A stretch of DNA of 48,569 nucleotides from Treponema sp. (lineage in GTDB: Bacteria > Spirochaetota > Spirochaetia > Treponematales > Treponemataceae), in assembly GCA_024681195.1 (NCBI GenBank), contig JAILBH010000132.1, positions 1 to 48,569 of the forward strand, read 5' to 3'. Shown piece by piece: positions 32,300 to 43,920 of the stretch. Both the position numbers and the translations under genes were made by a program. Positions within the stretch are counted from its first letter, which is position 1; each line of letters begins with the position of its first letter. The notes under the pieces were generated by a model, which had not been told where the DNA came from, did not search any database, and worked only from the letters and a program-made list of their open reading frames with translations.

Positions 32300-33994
32300 C
32301 TATTTAATATCCTTACGCATAATTTTGCCGGATATTGTTTTAGGCAGCTCCTTTACAAAGTCCACAATTCTTGGATATTTGTATGGAGCTGTTGTTTTTT
32401 TAACAAAATCCTGGATATCTTTTACAAGCTGGGGACCTGGTTCATACCCTTTTGCAAGAATGATTGTAGCCTTTACAACCTGACCGCGAACAGGGTCTGG
32501 AGCTGCAGTTACAGCGCATTCTACAACAGCAGGATGCTGCATAAGAACAGATTCTACTTCAAAAGTACCAATTCTATAGCCTGAACACTTGATTACATCG
32601 TCATTACGGCCTGTAAACCAGAAGTATCCGTCTTCATCACGCCATGCATTATCGCTTGTATGATAATAGCCGTCATGCATTACAGCCTTAGTCTTTGCTT
32701 CATCCCCAAAATATTCCATAAAAAGACCAGGGAAATTTCCTTTGGACATATCAACAACGATTTCACCAACCTCACCATCTTCTACTTCATTACCTTCTTC
32801 ATCAATAAGAGTAACGTTGTAATAAGGTGCAGGTTTTCCAAGACTACCCGGTTTTATCTTTTCGTTTCCATAGTTGAAGAGAGAGAGTGTTGTTTCTGTC
32901 TGGCCAAAGCCTTCTCTAATCTCTTTACCAGTTACAGCCTTCCATTTATTAAATACTTCTTCACTAAGTGGTTCACCAGCTGTAGACCAATGTAGACAAC
33001 TTGAGAAATTATATTTAGTTAAATCTTCCTGAATAAGGAAGCGGTAGATTGTTGGAGGAGCACAGAAAGATGTTATATGATGTTTTTCTATCTGTTTGAT
33101 AAGGTCAATAGGCTTAAATTTATCATGATAGTCATAAATAAATACAGCACATTCTGCAATCCACTGGCCATAAAGCTTACCCCACACTGCCTTACCCCAG
33201 CCTGTATCTGCAACTGTAAGATGAAGACCACCTTTCTGAACCTGCTGCCAGTAGCTTGCTGTAACAATGTGTCCAAGCGGATAAAGGAAGTTGTGAGAAA
33301 CCAGCTTTGGATGACTGGTAGTTCCAGAAGTAAAATATGCAAGAAGAATATCATCATTTTTGCTTATATCTTCTCGCTTAAGGGCATGTAAATCATTAAG
33401 CTGAGCTTCTGTTACATTTTTACAGCCTTCTGTAAAATCCAGCCAGGCCGGATGGTTCTTTTTAAATTCTTCACTCATTCCCTGATCAATTCCAAAAGGT
33501 GGAACTGCAACAAGAGTTTTGAGAGAAGGACATTCTTTTTGAGCATCCTCAATATATTTAAAAAGTTCACGACTATCTACGGCAACAACAGCTTTAATAA
33601 ATGCAGTATTACAGCGGTAAACAATATCTTCTTTGGTAAGCATATGAGTTGCAGGAATTACACTTGCCCCTATTTTATGAAGTGCAACAATAGAAATCCA
33701 GAATTCATAGCGACGTTGAAGAATAAGCATTACAAAGTCACCGCGTTTAATTCCAATACTGCGGAAATAAGCTGCGGCCCTGTCTGTACGTTCCTTGAGT
33801 TCCCCAAAAGTCATACGAATTTCTTCGTCATTATCATTGCACCATATAAATGCCAGTGCATCTGGAGTTCTTTTTGCAAGCTCGTCAACAACATCGTAAC
33901 CAAAGTTAAAGTTGTCTGGAACCTTTATTTTATAATTTGCAAAAAAGTCGTTATAGTCTTTAAATTCTGTTTGTTCTAGAAAATCTTCTAACAT
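32300..33994 (-). CDS. AMP-forming acyl-CoA synthetase (acetyl/medium-chain type)
   Basis: AYFTSGTTSHPKLV, REGFGQTETTLS, YYHTSDNAWRDEDGYFWFTGRNDDVIKCSGYRI, PKTISGKIMRKDI. Confidence 0.93.
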   Translation of the reverse strand: MLEDFLEQTEFKDYNDFFANYKIKVPDNFNFGYDVVDELAKRTPDALAFIWCNDNDEEIRMTFGELKERTDRAAAYFRSIGIKRGDFVMLILQRRYEFWISIVALHKIGASVIPATHMLTKEDIVYRCNTAFIKAVVAVDSRELFKYIEDAQKECPSLKTLVAVPPFGIDQGMSEEFKKNHPAWLDFTEGCKNVTEAQLNDLHALKREDISKNDDILLAYFTSGTTSHPKLVSHNFLYPLGHIVTASYWQQVQKGGLHLTVADTGWGKAVWGKLYGQWIAECAVFIYDYHDKFKPIDLIKQIEKHHITSFCAPPTIYRFLIQEDLTKYNFSSCLHWSTAGEPLSEEVFNKWKAVTGKEIREGFGQTETTLSLFNYGNEKIKPGSLGKPAPYYNVTLIDEEGNEVEDGEVGEIVVDMSKGNFPGLFMEYFGDEAKTKAVMHDGYYHTSDNAWRDEDGYFWFTGRNDDVIKCSGYRIGTFEVESVLMQHPAVVECAVTAAPDPVRGQVVKATIILAKGYEPGPQLVKDIQDFVKKTTAPYKYPRIVDFVKELPKTISGKIMRKDIK

Positions 33995-34013: not shown

Positions 34014-34565
34014 TTATATTATTATTGCTAAGAATTTAGCTTTTTTATCATTCAGCGCCTGCATACCGTGCTTCTTTGTTGCATCAAAATAAACGCTGTC
34101 ACCTTCTTCCAATACCATTTCTTTGCCGTCTACAACAAGCTTCATTGAACCTTCAATCATGTATTCAAATTCATGGCCCGGATGTGCATTAAAATGGATT
34201 TCCTTTGTTTCTTCAGGTGTAATGGTAACAATAAAAGGATCTGCCTTGCGGTTCTGAAAACCTGCAGCCAGAGCCTGATATTTATAATCGCTTCGTCTGT
34301 CTACCGAAAGTCCTTTATCCTTTTTGGTAAGACAGTATGAATGCATGTGCGGTTCTTTTCCCGAAATGAGGGTACCAAGGTCAATTCCGTACTTTTTGGA
34401 CATTGACTGTAAAATGCCTACAGGAATGTCGATTGTGCCGGTTTCGTACTTCTGGTACTGTTCAATAGAAATACCACATACACCTGCAGCTTCTTCTACT
34501 GATACATCCATAATTTCACGCAGACCGATCAATCGGTCTGCTACTGCCTTAATCTCCTCATTCAT
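34014..34565 (-). CDS. XRE-family regulator with C-terminal cupin domain (paralogue 1)
   Basis: Helix-turn-helix N-terminus; cupin AHPGHEFEYMIEGSMKLVVDGKEMVLEEGDSVYFDATKKHG. Confidence 0.92.
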   Translation of the reverse strand: MNEEIKAVADRLIGLREIMDVSVEEAAGVCGISIEQYQKYETGTIDIPVGILQSMSKKYGIDLGTLISGKEPHMHSYCLTKKDKGLSVDRRSDYKYQALAAGFQNRKADPFIVTITPEETKEIHFNAHPGHEFEYMIEGSMKLVVDGKEMVLEEGDSVYFDATKKHGMQALNDKKAKFLAIII

Positions 34566-34599: not shown

Positions 34600-36246
34600 T
34601 TAGTCTTGTACTTTTAACACTTCTCTTCTGTATTTTGTTCCAATTTCTGTAAGCTTAAACTTCTGAATTTTTCCAGAACCGGTCATTGGAAATTCATCCA
34701 GGAACATTACAAGCTGCGGCCACTTGAATTTAGAAAGCTTATCGCGGCAGAATTCAATTACATCCTGCTCAGTCAAAGTTTTACCTTCATGAAGAATAAT
34801 GAATGCTCCGGTAATTTCACCATAGCGTTCACTCTTAACAGCGGCAACCTGAATATCTTTAATTTCTGGAATCTGAATTAAGAACTCTTCAATTTCGCGT
34901 GGATAAATGTTTTCTCCACCACGAATAATCATATCTTTAATGCGGCCGGTAATCTTATAATTTCCGTTTTCATCTTTTACACCAAGGTCTCCGGAATGAA
35001 GGAAGCCGTTTTTATCAATTGTTTCTGCAGTAGCTTCGGGCATTTTGTAATAACCCTTCATTACGTTCCAGCCCTTACAACACATTTCTCCCTGAACGCC
35101 AACAGGACATTCTTTTCCTGTTTCCGGATCCAAAACCTTTACTTCAATTCCTTCAAAAGCATCTCCAACAGTTGTTGCTTTTACTTCTACTGAATCATCC
35201 CAGTGGCTTTGAGTCATACCAGGGCTGGATTCTGTAAGGCCATAAACCGAAGTAATTTCGGGCATATGCATTTTTTCTATTACAGTCTTCATAAGCTCAA
35301 CAGGAACGCCAGAGCCGGCCATAATACCGGTTCTAAGAGAAGACATGTCAAACATGCTGAACATCGGGTGGTTTAATTCAGAAATAAACATTGTTGGTAC
35401 ACCATAAAGAGATGTACACTTTTCTTTCTGGATTGAAGCAAGAGCAACAAGAGGATCAAAGGTTTCCAGAAGAACGTGGGTAGCACCATGAGTCAGAATT
35501 GCCATTACTCCAAGAACAATACCAAAACAATGGAAAAGCGGTACTAAAAGACACAAACGGTCCTTTGAAGTGTAACGCATTCGTTCTCCAATAATCCATC
35601 CGTCATTAATAATATTGCGGCTGGTAAGCATAACACCCTTAGGAAAGCCGGTTGTTCCCGAAGTATACTGCATGTTTACAACATCGTGCTGTGTAACTTC
35701 ACTTTCTATCTTGTGAATAATTTCTATGTCTACATGCTGTCCAAGCAAAAGAAGTTCCGGTGTTGAATAAAGACCACGGAATTTTTCTGGTCCCATAAAT
35801 ACAACATTACGCAAAAATGGAAAACGCTTTGATTTAAGACAACCACGTTCATATTCATCAAGCTCCGGAACAAGCTCTTTAATCATTGCAACATAATTTG
35901 AATCCTTTACACCATCGGTAAGACAAAGAGTTGTTAAATCGGCCTGTTTAACAAGATATTCAAGTTCGTGAGATTTATATGAGGTATTTACAGTAACTGC
36001 AACAGCTCCTAGTCTGGCACAGGCAAACATATAAGTAAGCCAGTCTGGAACATTTGTTGCCCAGATTCCAACATTGTCACCTTTTCTGACTCCAATGGCG
36101 TATAATCCGCAGGCAAGATCATCTACACGTTTGTCAAACTGAGCATAAGTAAAACGTAAATCACGGTCTGCGTATACCATGAATTCCTGTTCAGGATTTT
36201 CCTGAGTTTTTTGTCTTAACAGCTGGTTTAAAGATAATTCAATCAT
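34600..36246 (-). CDS. AMP-forming acyl-CoA synthetase/ligase
   Basis: [78 protein letters not shown]. Confidence 0.94.
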
Positions 36247-36252
36247 AATTTG

Positions 36253-36281
36253 AATATATACGAAAGCAGTGAAAATTTCAA
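36253..36281 (-). promoter_or_regulatory. Putative promoter of acyl-CoA synthetase operon
   Basis: Minus strand: TTGAAA (36281-36276), 17 bp spacer, TATATT (36258-36253), then 6 nt to the ATG at 36246. Confidence 0.65.
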
Positions 36282-36289
36282 TATAAAAG

Positions 36290-36323
36290 TTTAATTATTT
36301 TAAAGTTATTTAATATAATTAAA
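36290..36323. promoter_or_regulatory. Tandem AT-rich palindromic operator candidate (copy 1)
   Basis: TTTAATTATTTTAAA - GTTA - TTTAATATAATTAAA (15+4+15), same layout as 43887-43920. Confidence 0.6.
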
Positions 36324-36377: not shown

Positions 36378-37493
36378 ATGGAAAGGTCATTAATTGCATT
36401 CAGTGGCACTGGCGTCAAGGAAGACGACTACACCAACTGTTTTCAAAAAATATCTTCTCAAAATTCCAGTCCCAAAATTATTATATTCTTTTCCGACTAC
36501 CAGGATTTATGGTATTACGCCAAACAACTTAAAGAAGACTTTCCAGAAGCAACTTCAATAGGATGCTCAACATGTATGAATTTTTCGACAGAAGGCTATT
36601 CCGAAAAAGGGCTTTCTGCAATGGCAATTTATAATAATGTTGAATGTTCTTCCGGTTTACTTTATGAAGTTTCAAGACATCCAAAAAACTACTGCCGTCA
36701 TATTAATGAGGCCTTAAAATCCCTTAATTCAACAGATAATACAATTTGTCTGGAATTTACAACTTCCGGTTCCAGGTGTGAAGAGCTTGTCTTAGACACT
36801 TTTGAAGAAATTCTTTTGGGGACAGATATTAAGGTTGCAGGTTCTACAGCTGGCAGCAATAAAAATATTAGAACTTCTGCCGTAGCTTTAAATGGTGACA
36901 TTTACATAGAAAGCTGTGCCTTTATATTTATACATAATCTTAGCGGAAAGATTCATCTTTACAGAGAAAACTTATTCCGCCCTACTTCTCATGTACTTTT
37001 AACTACAGATGTTGATTGCGAAAATTTAAGAGTTTATGAATATGATAACAAGCCTGCAGCTAAGGTTTTATGCGAACTTTTACATGTAGACCGTGAAAAT
37101 CTTTTAGAAACTTTAAAATTAAATCCAATTGGTCGTATAGAAGGCAATAATATTCTTATATCAGAAGCTGCACAAATTATGGATGACGACTCAATTGTTT
37201 ATTATTCAAGACTCTATAATCAAACCCGCGTTGTCCTTCTGGAACAGGATAATTATGACAGCGTGTGGGACGAAACTCAAAATGCTATTAAAAAAATGAC
37301 AGATAAACCATCGTTCTCTATAGCAGTGCACTGTTATTCCCGAAAGGTAATGCTTGAGGAACAAAGCCGATTTGATGATTTTTCAAAACGTCTTATTACT
37401 ACTCTTGGAAAATATATCGGAGTTTGCGGTTTTGGTGAACAGATAATGTTTAATAATCTGAATCAGTCACTGGTGCTTATAATTTTTGAATAG
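36378..37493 (+). CDS. FIST-domain signal transduction protein
   Basis: FIST N region ([50 protein letters not shown]) followed by a FIST C-like region ([27 protein letters not shown]). Confidence 0.82.
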
Positions 37494-37501
37494 AGGTTTT
37501 C

Positions 37502-40500
37502 ATGTTCAGATATAACAACGGTATTATTATTACCAACAAAAATTGTATTGGCTGCAATTATTGTATCTCTCAATGTTCAATTATGGGAGCGAATATTTCT
37601 GCAACAATTAAAGGTAATAAAATAATTGCTGTAGATTCCAATAAATGTAATCACTGTGGTAAATGTATTGCTCTTTGTATTCATGATGCACGTGAATATG
37701 TTGATGATACCAAAGATTTTTTTGATGCCCTTAAAGATGGAGAAAAAATTTCTTTAATAATTGATCCAAGCTTTTATTTTACTTATGGCGAAAAAGCTTA
37801 TCAGATTACACAATATCTTCGTTCTCTTGGTGTTCAAAAAGTTTATGATGGTTCTGTAGGCTGTGAAATAGCTGTATGGGCAACCGTAAAATATCTTAAA
37901 GATCATTATGATGATAATCCAAGAGATAAAGCTTTTATTGTAAATAACTGCCCTGCTTTTATAAATGTTGTAGAAATGAAATACCCGCAGCTTATGCAAA
38001 AGGTAATTCCTGTTCAATCTGGTCCAATCTGTACGGCAATTTTTGCACATAAATATATGAGCGATATGAATAAGATTGCTTACCTTGGTCCATGTATTGC
38101 TAAGAAAGATGAAATTACAACAAAGAACACTTTTGGAAACATCTCTTATAATCTTACCTACAAACATTTGTGGGAACAGATTAAGGATATAGATTTTTCT
38201 CAATACGAACCATTTTATTCAGATATTAAACCTATTGGCTTTGGACAGTTCACGGTACGATCTGGTTTTTATCAAAAGATTATATCTAATTACTTTTCAA
38301 GGCATGATGTAACTGCGGTACACACGGGGGCTGGAGATCCAACCTTTAAGCAGCTTTTGATGTATACAGATACAGAATATGATAATATTCAACCGCTGCT
38401 TGCCGAAGTTTATGCCTGTAATCAAGGTTGTTTTGAAGGTCCTGGTTCGGATAAAAGCTGTTATAACAAAGGTGAAAACTTTTCACGTTTTAACCACATG
38501 TTCAAAGAAAGACATGACACTTTTGAACATTCAAATGGAGATTACAGGGAAGAAACTAAATTCCTTTTTGAAAAATTTAAAGACTTTCATTTTGAAGATT
38601 TTAGCCGCAGCTTTGAAGACAGATACTTTCAGCCTTATCATGTTTCGGATTCAATCTATAATGAAATTTTTAATGCTATGCTCAAAACCACAGAAGAGAA
38701 ACGTCATATTGACTGTGGAATGTGCGGTTACAAAACCTGTAAAAGCATGGCCACTGCAATTGCCTATTCGTACAACAAAAAAGAAAACTGTATTCATTAT
38801 ATGAATGATGAAATGCGTCATCGTCTTTATACAGATACAGTTGCTAACTGTCCTAATAAAGATGCCTTTATTGAAAGAGTAAAAAGAACAATTATAAAAA
38901 ATCCAGAAAAGAATTACAGACTTTATTGTGGTGATATAAACAAATATAAGGTTATAAATGAGCTGCATGGTTCAGAAATTGGAGATGCCGTATTAAGAGT
39001 AATTTCCCAGAGACTTGATGAGCTTACAAAACCAGACGGTTGTTATGCCCGTATAACAAGTGGTCAGTTTGCATTCTTCCTTGAAGAATCAATTGATAAC
39101 ATTCAGCATATAATGAACTTAAAATCTTTTGATTGTACCGGACTTGGAATAAACTACCCTATTACAATGCGTTTTGGTTTTTACAGTATGATAGAAAATC
39201 CTATTGCAGATAGAGAAAACGTTAATGTAATGGAAATGATTAACAGCTCGGTCCTTGCAATGGATCAGCGTATTACACAACAGGAAAATACCTACAGTCC
39301 TTTTACACAAGCCTTAAGACAAAAGCAGCACAAAGAAGCACAGCTTTCTACTCTTATGAAATCTGCTTTGGAAAATAACGAATTTGTTTTATGGTTCCAG
39401 CCACAGTATTCAACAGCAACAAATAAAATGGTTGGAGCCGAAACTCTCTGCCGCTGGATAAACAAAGAAGGTCAGATTATTTCTCCATCGGTATTTATTC
39501 CTGTAACAGAAAAAAACGGCTTTATCCGTTATCTTGATAAAGAAATCTGGCGTAAGGCATTCAGTATGCTAAGGCGATGGATAGATGCTGGTTATGATCC
39601 GGTTCCAATCTCTTTAAATATTTCGCGTGTGAGTCTTGAATCAGAAGGAATATATTACACAATTAAATATTTAAAAGATGAATATCATATTCCACCGGAG
39701 CTTGTACATTTTGAAATTACAGAAAGCGCCTACATTGGTGATGAAGGAAACTTTATTCATCGTATAAATCTTATTCGTAGTCTTGGTTTTAAGATTGCCA
39801 TGGATGATTTTGGAAGCGGTTATTCTTCTTTAAATACACTTAAGGATATTCCGATTGATATAATCAAGCTGGATATGGGCTTTTTAAATGACAGTAATGT
39901 TTCTGAACAAAATAAAGCTTTGGATTTACAAGATAAGAAATTTACTTCCAAGGGTGGTACTATCATCAGCTCTGTAATTAGAATGGCTCAAAAGCTTAAT
40001 TATATTACAGTTGCCGAAGGTGTTGAAAAACCGGAACAGGTAGCATTTTTAAGAAGTATTGGCTGCGATGTTATTCAGGGATTTTTATTTGCAAAACCAA
40101 TGCCGGAAGATGCCTTTATAAAAGTAATGCTTTCAAAAGAAACAAAACAATTTGGAGTTCAGACTAATCGTCCTACCGGTAAAATTGAAATTGAGCGCTT
40201 TATAAATCCAAATAATCCTGAGTCATATTTGTTTGATAATTATGTAGGCCCGGCTCTTATTGTTGAATATCATACTCAGGATTGTAACACTACGATTTTA
40301 AAAACAAATGACCATGCCAAAATTTTATTTGGCGTTGCAGACCGTAATTTTGATACCATAAACGGTTTATTTTCAAAATTCATTAAATCAAAAAACGGTA
40401 GGAATTTACGGGATGCATTAAATCAAGCAACAAAGACTGTTGATGAAGTTATAAGTGAAGTTAGAATACATAATCTTTCTTCGCACGAAGTAAAATATAT

Positions 40501-40627
40501 AAGATCGCATATCTGGCAGATTAATACCAATATGGACAGCTTTGTATTTTATATTCTTTTTGATGATATTTCTGACTTCAAGCTTCTCAAAGAAAAGCTC
40601 GAAGCAGAACATGATGAGACAGAATAG
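37502..40627 (+). CDS. Ferredoxin / [FeFe]-hydrogenase-like H-cluster / degenerate GGDEF / EAL fusion with PAS-like C-terminus
   Basis: 4Fe-4S motifs [11 protein letters not shown] and [12 protein letters not shown]-cluster-like [46 protein letters not shown] replaced by SGQFA; EAL motifs [42 protein letters not shown]. Confidence 0.88.
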
Positions 40628-40629
40628 AA

Positions 40630-41205
40630 TCAGGCAGGAGTATATACAACAGCAAGAATCTTTGCAGGATTTTCGCCGTGGCTATGTACGTGATGTGCTA
40701 CAATTGATTCATAGTAAATTGAGTCCCCTTTTTGAAGAAGATATTTGTCTTTACCATAAATTATTTCTACCTCACCTTCAAGAACATAAATGAATTCTTC
40801 GCCCTCGTGGGTTGAAGTTTTAATTTCTTCTTCTGAACTTGGGAAAATATCAATGATAAACGGATCCATGTGGCGGCCGGCTTTGTTCTGAGCCAGTGTG
40901 TAAAAGTCAAGGTCTGAGTTTACTGCATTTCCGCGGTCGCTGAATCGGGTTACTTCCTTTTTATCCTGAGCACGGGTTACTACCGGGCCTAAGTTTTCGT
41001 CGTCGTCCATAAAGGTACCAAGGCGAACACCAAGTACACGGGCAATTTTAATAAGCGGAGTTAAGTTCGGAACAAGGCTTCCGTCTTCAATGCTTGCAAT
41101 CTGCTGAACGCTTAAGTTTGTTCTTTCGCTTACATCTTCTATACTGAGCTTGCGGTTTTCGCGAACCAATTTTACCTTTGCACCAATTTTATTTTTTTCA
41201 CTCAT
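40630..41205 (-). CDS. XRE-family regulator with C-terminal cupin domain (paralogue 2)
   Basis: KVKLVRENRKLSIEDVSERTNLSVQQIASIEDG helix-turn-helix; cupin THEGEEFIYVLEGEVEIIYGKDKYLLQKGDSIYYES. Confidence 0.93.
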   Translation of the reverse strand: MSEKNKIGAKVKLVRENRKLSIEDVSERTNLSVQQIASIEDGSLVPNLTPLIKIARVLGVRLGTFMDDDENLGPVVTRAQDKKEVTRFSDRGNAVNSDLDFYTLAQNKAGRHMDPFIIDIFPSSEEEIKTSTHEGEEFIYVLEGEVEIIYGKDKYLLQKGDSIYYESIVAHHVHSHGENPAKILAVVYTPA

Positions 41206-41753
41206 TTGATTTCATACTCCTTATTAAATGCAGTTTCAATAGTTGCAATATTAATCGGGTTAAATTTTTTGTTGCGTGCACTGATTGCTTCGTCCAGAGC
41301 ATATTCAAAAGGCTTTGGACCGCTAACCATGCCTGGAATTACTTTTGCAAGACAACCAAGAACTACCATGTTTGCACCACGCGGATTATTTGTTTCCTCT
41401 GCAATTTTATTACATGGAAGAGCAAGAGTTCTTATATCCTTTCGGCTTGGTTCAATGTCAATAAGGCTTGAGTTGTAAATTAAAAGTCCGCCGGGCTTGA
41501 GCCATTCTTCAAACTTTGTCATAGATGGTTTGTTTAAGGCAACTACAACATCCGGCTTTTCTATTACAGGAGAAGCAACTTCTTCATCACTAACAATTAC
41601 AGAACAGTTGGCAGTTCCACCACGCATTTCTGCACCATAAGAAGGAATATGAGAAACAAATTTATCTTCGCTCATTCCTGCAAGTGTAAGGATTTTTCCG
41701 GCAAGGATTACCCCCTGACCGCCAAAGCCTGCAAAAATTATTTCTGTTGTCAT
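41202..41753 (-). CDS. 2-oxoacid:ferredoxin oxidoreductase gamma subunit
   Basis: EIIFAGFGGQGVILAGKIL ... SYGAEMRGGTANCSVIVSD. Confidence 0.94.
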   Translation of the reverse strand: MTTEIIFAGFGGQGVILAGKILTLAGMSEDKFVSHIPSYGAEMRGGTANCSVIVSDEEVASPVIEKPDVVVALNKPSMTKFEEWLKPGGLLIYNSSLIDIEPSRKDIRTLALPCNKIAEETNNPRGANMVVLGCLAKVIPGMVSGPKPFEYALDEAISARNKKFNPINIATIETAFNKEYEIK

Positions 41754-42550
41754 TTTGCGCCTCCTGGAACTACAACACCTGCTGTTGGTTTTGCTGCATC
41801 TGGTACATTACCGGCTGGAACATCACGGAAAACTCCAAGCGGATAATATGGTTCCATCTGTTCCTTTACCCAGTCTGCTGCAACAGTTGGAGCAACGCCC
41901 CAGTTAGTAGGACACATGCTCAAAACTTCTACAAAGCTGTAGCCCTTTCCTTCCTTCTGATAAGTTAAAGCCTTTTTAATTGCAGCCTTAGTCTTATTAA
42001 TGTGCTGAACATCATAAACTGCACAGCGTTCAATATATTTTGGTTCAACAAGTGTATTCAAAAGTTCGCATGCACGAATTGGATAACCAACATCGTTTGC
42101 ATCACGGCCGTATGGTGAAGTTTTTGTTACCTGACCAACAAGCGAAGTTGGAGCCATCTGACCACCTGTCATTCCGTAGATTGCGTTATTGATAAAGATT
42201 ACTGTGATATTTTCTCCACGGTTTGCAGCGTGAACAGTTTCTGCAGTACCAATTGCAAGAAGGTCACCGTCTCCCTGGTAGCTTATTACAAGCTTATCTG
42301 GGTGAACGCGTTTCATACCGGTTGCAACTGCAGGAGCACGACCATGAGCGGCTTCGCAGGAATCTACGTTTATATAGTTGTAGGCATATACGGCACAACC
42401 AACCGGAGCAACTAAAAGAACGTCGCTTTGAATATTCATCTCATCAATTACCTGAGCAATGAGCTTGTGAACAATTCCGTGTCCACAGCCGCCGCAGTAA
42501 TGAGTCTTTACATCCTTCATTGATTTAGGAAATTCATATTTCTTAGACAT
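41750..42550 (-). CDS. 2-oxoacid:ferredoxin oxidoreductase beta subunit (TPP-binding)
   Basis: HYCGGCGHGIVHKLIA, GRAPAVATGMKRVHPDKLVISYQGDGDLLAIG, NNAIYGMTGGQMAPTS. Confidence 0.95.
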   Translation of the reverse strand: MSKKYEFPKSMKDVKTHYCGGCGHGIVHKLIAQVIDEMNIQSDVLLVAPVGCAVYAYNYINVDSCEAAHGRAPAVATGMKRVHPDKLVISYQGDGDLLAIGTAETVHAANRGENITVIFINNAIYGMTGGQMAPTSLVGQVTKTSPYGRDANDVGYPIRACELLNTLVEPKYIERCAVYDVQHINKTKAAIKKALTYQKEGKGYSFVEVLSMCPTNWGVAPTVAADWVKEQMEPYYPLGVFRDVPAGNVPDAAKPTAGVVVPGGAK

Positions 42551-43601
42551 AGCTTTTTACCTTCTCAATAATTGCATCAACTTTAGGAATAATTCCACCA
42601 GGTTCACCGTAGAATTCAACATCACTAACCTTGTGGCCACTGTAAAGCTTAACATCCTGTACCATCTGTCCCATAGACATTTCTACAGTAAGAATCTTTT
42701 TTGCAGTGCTACAAGCTGCTTCGAGTTCTTTCTGAGGGAATGGCCACAAAGTAATCGGACGGAAAAGACCAGCCTTAATACCCTGGTCACGCAACATCTT
42801 TACAGCCTTTTTGCAAACGCGGGCTGCAGTACCGTATCCTGTAAGAACTATATCTGCATCGTCACACATATAAGTTTCGCTCATTGTTTCGTTTGCCTGA
42901 ATGCGGTCGTAATTTTCAAAAAGCTCTTTTGTGTGCTTGTTTAAGTCGTAGTCATCCCCGTTTAAGCGCAAAGACAAGGCAATATTATTTTCACGGTCAG
43001 GTGTGCGACCTGTAAGTGCCCATGGCTTTGCAGGAAATTCTGTAACATATTCAGGAAGGATACATGGTTCACTCATCTGTCCAAGGTATCCGTCTCCTAA
43101 GATCATACATACAACACGATATTTATCTGCAATTTCAAAGGCTTTTACGGTACAGTCTGCCATTTCCTGAACAGTACCTGGAGCAATAACTACAACATGA
43201 TAGTCACCGTTACCACCGCCTCTAGTGGCTTGAAAGTAGTCTCCCTGAGCTCCGCTGATATTTCCAAGGCCCGGGCCTCCACGCATCATGTTTACAATAA
43301 CAGCCGGAAGTTGTGCACCTGAAAGATAAGAGATTCCTTCCTGTTTAAGAGAGATTCCGGGAGAAGAAGATGAAGTCATTGCACGGGCTCCTGCTGCACT
43401 TGCTCCCATTACCATATTTATTGCGGCAAGTTCACTTTCTGCCTGTAAAAAGCAACCCTTTTCTTCGGGCAGACGCTTTGCCATATAAGCTGGAATTTCA
43501 TTCTGCGGAGTAATTGGATAGGCAAAATAAAAACGGCATCCTGCTCTGATAGCTGCTTCTCCAATTGCTTCGTTTCCTTTCATTAAAACTTTCTTACTCA
43601 T
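42543..43601 (-). CDS. 2-oxoacid:ferredoxin oxidoreductase alpha subunit (VorB-like)
   Basis: KGNEAIGEAAIRAGCRFYFAYPITPQNEIPAYMA, TSSSSPGISLKQEGISYLSGAQLPAVIVNMMRGGPGLG. Confidence 0.95.
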   Translation of the reverse strand: MSKKVLMKGNEAIGEAAIRAGCRFYFAYPITPQNEIPAYMAKRLPEEKGCFLQAESELAAINMVMGASAAGARAMTSSSSPGISLKQEGISYLSGAQLPAVIVNMMRGGPGLGNISGAQGDYFQATRGGGNGDYHVVVIAPGTVQEMADCTVKAFEIADKYRVVCMILGDGYLGQMSEPCILPEYVTEFPAKPWALTGRTPDRENNIALSLRLNGDDYDLNKHTKELFENYDRIQANETMSETYMCDDADIVLTGYGTAARVCKKAVKMLRDQGIKAGLFRPITLWPFPQKELEAACSTAKKILTVEMSMGQMVQDVKLYSGHKVSDVEFYGEPGGIIPKVDAIIEKVKSYV

Positions 43602-43603
43602 AT

Positions 43604-43816
43604 CTACTCTGCCTCAATTTCAATAACGCAATCCGGGCACATAGTTGCACAAAAAGCACAAGCAATACAATTTGCCTCATCAATACAAACAGGATAGTGA
43701 ACACCCTGACCATTAGTCTCTTTTGACATTTCAAGAATTTTTTTAGGACATGCACGAATACAAAGTGAACAGCCCTTGCATCTCTCCGTGTTGATTAAAG
43801 GTCTTCCTTTAGCCAT
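43604..43816 (-). CDS. 2-oxoacid:ferredoxin oxidoreductase ferredoxin (delta) subunit
   Basis: Two 4Fe-4S motifs CKGCSLCIRACP and CIACAFCATMCP; GGAG ribosome-binding site. Confidence 0.95.
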   Translation of the reverse strand: MAKGRPLINTERCKGCSLCIRACPKKILEMSKETNGQGVHYPVCIDEANCIACAFCATMCPDCVIEIEAE

Positions 43817-43848: not shown

Positions 43849-43877
43849 AATATAAACTAAATGAGAAAATAAAACAA
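43849..43877 (-). promoter_or_regulatory. Putative promoter of 2-oxoacid oxidoreductase operon
   Basis: Minus strand: TTGTTT (43877-43872), 17 bp spacer, TATATT (43854-43849). Confidence 0.6.
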
Positions 43878-43886
43878 TAGGAAAAC

Positions 43887-43920
43887 TTTAATATTATTAA
43901 AGAAATTTAATAATATTAAA
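43887..43920. promoter_or_regulatory. Tandem AT-rich palindromic operator candidate (copy 2)
   Basis: TTTAATATTATTAAA - GAAA - TTTAATAATATTAAA: perfect 15 bp inverted arms, same 15+4+15 layout as 36290-36323. Confidence 0.62.

Follow-up and report, generated by a model that had tools for sequence, protein, structure and literature searches.

The intergenic DNA upstream of an acyl-CoA synthetase operon in the window, i.e., the whole 48,569-nucleotide stretch of Treponema DNA analysed here, carries a tandem array of two palindromes which, judged by its sequence, its conservation, and its behaviour in chance controls, is a real and conserved double operator. Arrays of this type probably mark an amino-acid regulon, mainly a branched-chain one, in rumen Treponema. 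As a DNA element the operator appears ordinary in kind, and what seems new is the regulon.

The tandem operator and its promoter

On the plus strand, positions 36290–36323 of the window read TTTAATTATTTTAAA-GTTA-TTTAATATAATTAAA, a 34-mer in which two 15-mers (36290–36304 and 36309–36323) are paired via a 4-bp linker. Each 15-mer is a near-perfect palindrome on its own, TTTART-N3-AYTAAA; an equally valid reading of the array is an 18-bp dyad spanning the linker, TACTAAA-N4-TTTAGTA, and the inner half-sites of arrays are slightly better kept than the outer ones. The operator faces the ACS1 operon on the minus strand, where it is followed by 8 bp, a −35 box TTGAAA (36281–36276), an N17 spacer, a −10 box TATATT (36258–36253), the 6 bp CAAATT, and the ATG at 36246 (promoter boxes were called by eye or by consensus). 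The interval 36253–36323 given in the initial annotation corresponds to the operator together with the −10 and −35 boxes, and the layout described there, i.e., an operator between divergent genes placed 8 bp before TTGAAA-N17-TATATT on the minus strand, is confirmed by the coordinates. In the genomes G000, G014, G018, G025, and G033, the −10 box lies 6–7 bp from the ACS1 ATG without a Shine–Dalgarno sequence, suggesting a leaderless transcript; the ACS1 mRNA is predicted to be leaderless in the window as well (36244–36258).

A second tandem operator is found at 43887–43920 (minus strand), upstream of the VOR operon, and is followed after 9 bp by a −35 box TTGTTT (43872–43877), an N17 spacer, and a −10 box TATATT (43849–43854). 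A similar layout had been claimed for this site with one or a few mismatches per 15-mer, and it in fact shows no mismatch to TTTAAT-N3-WTWAAA x2.

These two sites are the only exact matches to TTTAATNNNWTWAAA-N4-TTTAATNNNWTWAAA in the source assembly (2.27 Mb, 77% complete). The background is very AT-rich, and chance similarity within such intergenic DNA could in principle produce the double motif; single 15-mers show no enrichment in the window, with 17 seen vs. 13.4 expected at 1 mismatch. However, 100 dinucleotide shuffles of the window gave zero pair matches with up to 2 mismatches allowed, indicating that the paired layout carries the signal rather than an AT-rich 15-mer. Relaxed to at most 2 mismatches, the pattern is present in 16 of the 59 same-genus genomes and in none of 40 genomes from other genera of the order, and its reversed control has 0 matches in 99 genomes. 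When 3 mismatches are allowed, matches to the reversed control appear in 16/59 genus genomes, but with a site number far below that of the true pattern. The initial annotation had named an equal frequency in shuffled sequence as a refutation, and this was not seen. Chance similarity is ruled out at the ≤ 2-mismatch level by the shuffles and the reversed control, and as a general explanation it is hardly credible in view of the two exact genome sites, the specificity of the 4-bp linker, and the conservation at orthologues.

Genes of the two operons

The first operon begins with ACS1, an AMP-forming acyl-CoA synthetase of 548 aa (34600–36246, minus strand; AMP-binding, 1.2e-92), followed on the same strand by XRE1, an XRE-cupin protein of 183 aa (34014–34565) which in many relatives is preceded by a promoter and a tandem array of its own, and by ACS2, an acyl-CoA synthetase (32300–33994) whose best NCBIfam model is MbcS, at 425 bits and below the cut-off of 850. 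The VOR operon, also on the minus strand, starts with a VorD-like ferredoxin of 70 aa (43604–43816) and continues with the VorB subunit (42543–43601; NCBIfam 3-methyl-2-oxobutanoate dehydrogenase subunit VorB, 510 bits, cut-off 399). Its further genes encode the TPP-binding beta subunit (41750–42550) and the gamma subunit (41202–41753) of a 2-oxoacid:ferredoxin oxidoreductase and, as the last gene, XRE2, an XRE-cupin protein of 191 aa (40630–41205) which is 28% identical to XRE1; the VorD-like, beta, gamma, and XRE2 assignments come from family matches. VOR catalyses the interconversion of branched-chain 2-oxoacids with acyl-CoAs; the free acids are activated by acyl-CoA synthetases.

On the plus strand, a NosP-like FIST gene (36378–37493) adjoins a gene (37502–40627) for a 1041-aa protein which combines ferredoxin-type domains, an iron-hydrogenase C-terminal domain, GGDEF, and EAL. 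The two proteins possibly form a redox- or gas-sensing c-di-GMP unit, and relatives of this unit are divergent to ACS1 in some genomes. The initial suggestion of a regulator shared with the divergent FIST gene is not supported, and a shared operator was rejected: the divergent neighbour differs from genome to genome, but the array remains in front of ACS1.

Conservation and spacing in relatives

Orthologues of ACS1, XRE1, VorB, and XRE2 were located in genus genomes, and their upstream DNA was read. Absence of the array upstream of orthologous operons, another refutation named in the initial annotation, was not seen: in the Treponema bryantii clade it stands upstream of the orthologous ACS1, XRE1-ACS2, and VOR operons, unlinked ones included. 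Of 12 genomes, 10 have it before ACS1, and every one of the 10 genomes examined for VorD has it there with a score of at least 20/24; XRE1 has an array of its own unless the gene merely follows ACS1. In G018, for example, XRE1-ACS2 is on contig C25 and VOR and ACS1 are on C100, and each of these three separate units has an array. The VorD promoter of G003 shows three 15-mers in register, and those of G056, G041, and G047 resemble it with a weaker third copy.

The 4-bp linker was evaluated in DNA retrieved by protein similarity, not by the operator pattern. In XRE1 loci, 34 sites at ≥ 21/24 have this spacing vs. 0–3 for most other spacers, and in ilvE loci the corresponding numbers are 15 vs. 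0–4. The XRE1 loci (L370–L417) also show a secondary peak of paired 15-mers at a spacing of 14 bp, with 15 sites at ≥ 21/24.

The 48 XRE1 loci contain 39 arrays, and the best downstream −35/−10 pair begins after 8 bp in 32 of these arrays and after 9 bp in 2. The 8-bp gap partly reflects common descent of closely related sequences; ACS1 orthologues have an equal 8-bp gap. This fixed array-to-−35 distance of 8–9 bp fits an activator, in agreement with the initial reading of the position near −35, and by their geometry the arrays at ACS1, XRE1-ACS2, and VOR look like activator sites.

The probable wider regulon

Arrays also precede ilvE, leuABC, ilvBCD, livK, gdh, and other genes in genomes without XRE1 or XRE2, and the source genome itself has an array before ilvE (C201:41091). 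The targets seen are ilvE, leuA/cimA, leuB, leuC, ilvB, ilvC, ilvD, livK, livH, gdh, an NfnA-type gene, glyA, dapA, an iorA-like gene, and a nifH-like gene. Target families were assigned by Pfam (aminotransferase IV, Glu/Leu/Phe/Val dehydrogenase, periplasmic binding protein, aconitase family, isopropylmalate dehydrogenase, SHMT, and DHODB-type Fe–S), and the other genes were named by visual inspection of their translations. By hand count, 52 of the 61 sites at ≥ 22/24 stand before branched-chain, glutamate, acyl-CoA, or 2-oxoacid genes, 1 before the operon of XRE3 (a third XRE-cupin protein, discussed below), and 8 before other or unclear genes. No arginine genes were seen among the sites inspected, and no transcription-factor gene was recognised by eye directly behind the other arrays.

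Weaker arrays (21/24) before nifH-like genes in G004 (L434) and G052 (L446) give a hint of a link to nitrogen supply. A 171-aa protein family without an NCBIfam match is encoded behind an array in G000, G002, and G004 (L251:2611–3126, i.e., source-genome contig C225; L285; L437).

The arrays at ilvE sit on or after the −10 box. In the source genome, TTGACA-N17-TAAAAT is overlapped by the array, and in G014, G033, and G009, TATAAT or TATACT immediately precedes it. The arrays at leuB, leuC, and livK are likewise placed just after the −10 box, and the geometry at ilvE, leuABC, and livK would suit a repressor. The ilvB array has the 9-bp activator spacing, and the gap at gdh is about one turn longer (both by eye).

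Proposed mechanism

From the array, its conservation, its targets, and its spacing, as read in the DNA, we infer a model of binding, activation or repression, and ligand sensing which is probably correct: a dual activator/repressor encoded elsewhere in the genome acts through the tandem operator. This dimeric transcription factor would bind cooperatively, with two (sometimes three) dimers side by side on 15-bp palindromes of the form TTTARTAnTAYTAAA, which recur every 19 bp or about two helical turns. At ACS1, XRE1-ACS2, and VOR, where the array ends 8–9 bp upstream of the sigma-70 −35 box, the proximal dimer would be centred at about −51 and the distal one at about −70, and the promoter-proximal dimer would most likely touch RNA polymerase and activate transcription. 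The weak outer half-site beside −35 in XRE1 promoters would fit a dimer which is kept in place by the neighbouring one. At the ilvE, leu, and liv genes, the complex on or after the −10 box would instead block initiation or escape, leading to repression. One factor could thereby turn branched-chain acyl-CoA/2-oxoacid genes up and amino-acid synthesis and uptake down together, and the ligand sensed is presumably a branched-chain amino acid, 2-oxoacid, or acyl-CoA.

Candidate regulators

Both operons contain or end in an XRE-cupin gene, and neighbouring genes are the targets of known XRE-cupins (PMC7901475), pointing at first sight to XRE1 and/or XRE2 as the proteins which bind the arrays. Arrays are also found in all 13 XRE1-bearing genomes. 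However, 17 of the 32 array-bearing genomes have neither protein, a distribution on which both were rejected as master regulators. In addition, arrays occur at the unlinked ilvE, leu, liv, and gdh genes, no array is found near Bacteroidia XRE1 or several distant Treponema XRE1 loci, and the HTH helices of XRE1, XRE2, and XRE3 differ from each other. Binding of the arrays by XRE1 or XRE2 is thus very improbable, and the two appear to be members of the regulon and not its likely master. The initial proposal of an XRE-cupin regulator fails for this pair and survives only in altered form, with XRE3 as the leading candidate. The Bacteroidia relatives of XRE1 (L414, L415), which are 57–58% identical, lie behind argC/argD/proC-like genes and before an ACS2-like gene, with no array.

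XRE3 is a core XRE-cupin protein of 206 aa which is unlinked to both operons (C89:12218–12835 in the source genome). It is PuuR-like, with an HTH best matched to SinR structures, and has a citrate synthase gene as neighbour in many genomes. In most genomes, the gene immediately before XRE3 encodes a conserved 358-aa protein with no family assigned (L210:1668–2744).

XRE3 is present in 31 of the 32 array-bearing genomes, the one exception being 74% complete, and the array is absent from 13 of 14 XRE3-less genomes (Fisher 8.5e-5, confounded by ancestry); the reversed-pattern control showed no such link to XRE3 presence. The array is missing in 14 XRE3-bearing genomes. On an IlvE tree, the array falls mainly in one clade, whose sister clade holds 9 of the 10 XRE3-less rows, and ancestry alone could explain much of the co-occurrence.

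Support independent of this co-occurrence comes from the DNA before the XRE3 operon, where 7 of 21 clade genomes reach ≥ 19/24 vs. 2.9% of shuffles, with most of these sites weak and the best (22/24) in G041 and G042. At other genes, scores ≥ 19 were found only at regulon sites, in shared XRE3 intergenic regions, and at one site before citrate synthase. The recognition helix of XRE3, SQIERNH vs. SQIERNR/K, tracks the clade with exceptions, e.g., G048 has R together with a good ilvE site; this difference was dropped as proof for XRE3 because it follows the clade and has this exception. On these observations XRE3 is tentatively the most likely binder of the array, at a probability somewhat below even. 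It is possible, and still more tentative, that in rumen Treponema XRE3 controls the metabolism of amino acids and branched-chain acids as a global, Lrp-like dual regulator which acts via tandem 15-bp palindromes.

A different binder could be the Lrp/AsnC protein (match at C227:8860–9084 in the source genome), a feast/famine dual regulator with clustered palindromes of 13–15 bp. The E. coli Lrp regulon resembles the array targets liv, ilv, leu, gdh, and glyA, and one lrp copy is found in 55 of 59 genus genomes. The 15-mers at a 19-bp period match the arrays of 13–15 bp semi-palindromes at two or three helical turns described for Lrp (PMC2995911), and Ss-LrpB, which has 15-bp palindromes, activates porDAB (PMC4046817). 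However, the presence of Lrp is unrelated to that of the array (29/32 array genomes, 26/27 others; p 0.62), and the lrp upstream region has no site in 9 genomes examined, the best score being 17/24. Autoregulation of lrp through the array, a frequent though not universal trait of such regulons, was rejected accordingly (0/9), and Lrp/AsnC is an unlikely binder.

Another tandem-box regulator to consider is ArgR, which recognises pairs of boxes set a constant distance apart and is encoded in 55 of 59 genomes, or a LysR-type protein that occupies two neighbouring sites. This alternative is likewise unlikely: arginine genes are lacking among the sites seen, and the distribution of ArgR, which is nearly universal and hence uninformative, does not track the array. 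More broadly, the binder is less likely than not to be a factor other than XRE3, Lrp/AsnC, and XRE1/XRE2.

Relation to known systems

ARG boxes are 18 bp long and 2–3 bp apart. The paired ARG boxes of ArgR/AhrC resemble the present operator in having two palindromic boxes at fixed spacing, but the Treponema array consists of 15-mers with a 4-bp linker, and no arginine genes were found in its regulon.

The Pseudomonas XRE-cupins (PsdR, PauR, ErfA, and DbuR) are alike in that they are metabolic regulators with palindromic sites near promoters, 15–25 bp in length (PMC12724383), and have amino-acid metabolism among their targets. In contrast to the Treponema arrays, which are tandem and have many unlinked targets and some activator geometry, their sites are mostly single and promoter-overlapping, and they mostly act as local repressors of neighbouring genes, not as wide dual regulators (PMC7901475). 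A regulator gene within the target set, an XRE-cupin trait, is seen for the XRE1 and XRE2 operons, which carry the array; the sites at the XRE3 operon are mostly weak. E. coli Lrp, whose targets carry clusters of semi-palindromic sites two or three helical turns apart, and Ss-LrpB, which activates porDAB through 15-bp palindromes, share with the Treponema system the regular arrays, the dual control proposed for it, and amino-acid and 2-oxoacid:ferredoxin oxidoreductase targets (PMC2995911, PMC4046817). However, Lrp/AsnC sites differ in sequence from TTGCAAAATTTGCAA, the Treponema lrp gene has no site, and the distribution of Lrp is not that of the array.

Significance

Rumen treponemes depend on branched-chain volatile fatty acids. 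A search of the available papers for a branched-chain regulon in Treponema found nothing, and one on Treponema regulons and branched-chain volatile fatty acid needs gave no usable match. The array makes its regulator directly accessible to pull-down experiments in which a 34-bp probe serves as bait, and for what is apparently one factor it offers promoters of both the activator and the repressor type. If XRE3 is indeed this factor, its role would be unusual in a family whose known members are mainly local repressors, and XRE1 and XRE2 would be recruited, co-regulated paralogues. The array provides a sequence handle on how rumen treponemes balance branched-chain acid use (ACS and VOR) against amino-acid synthesis.
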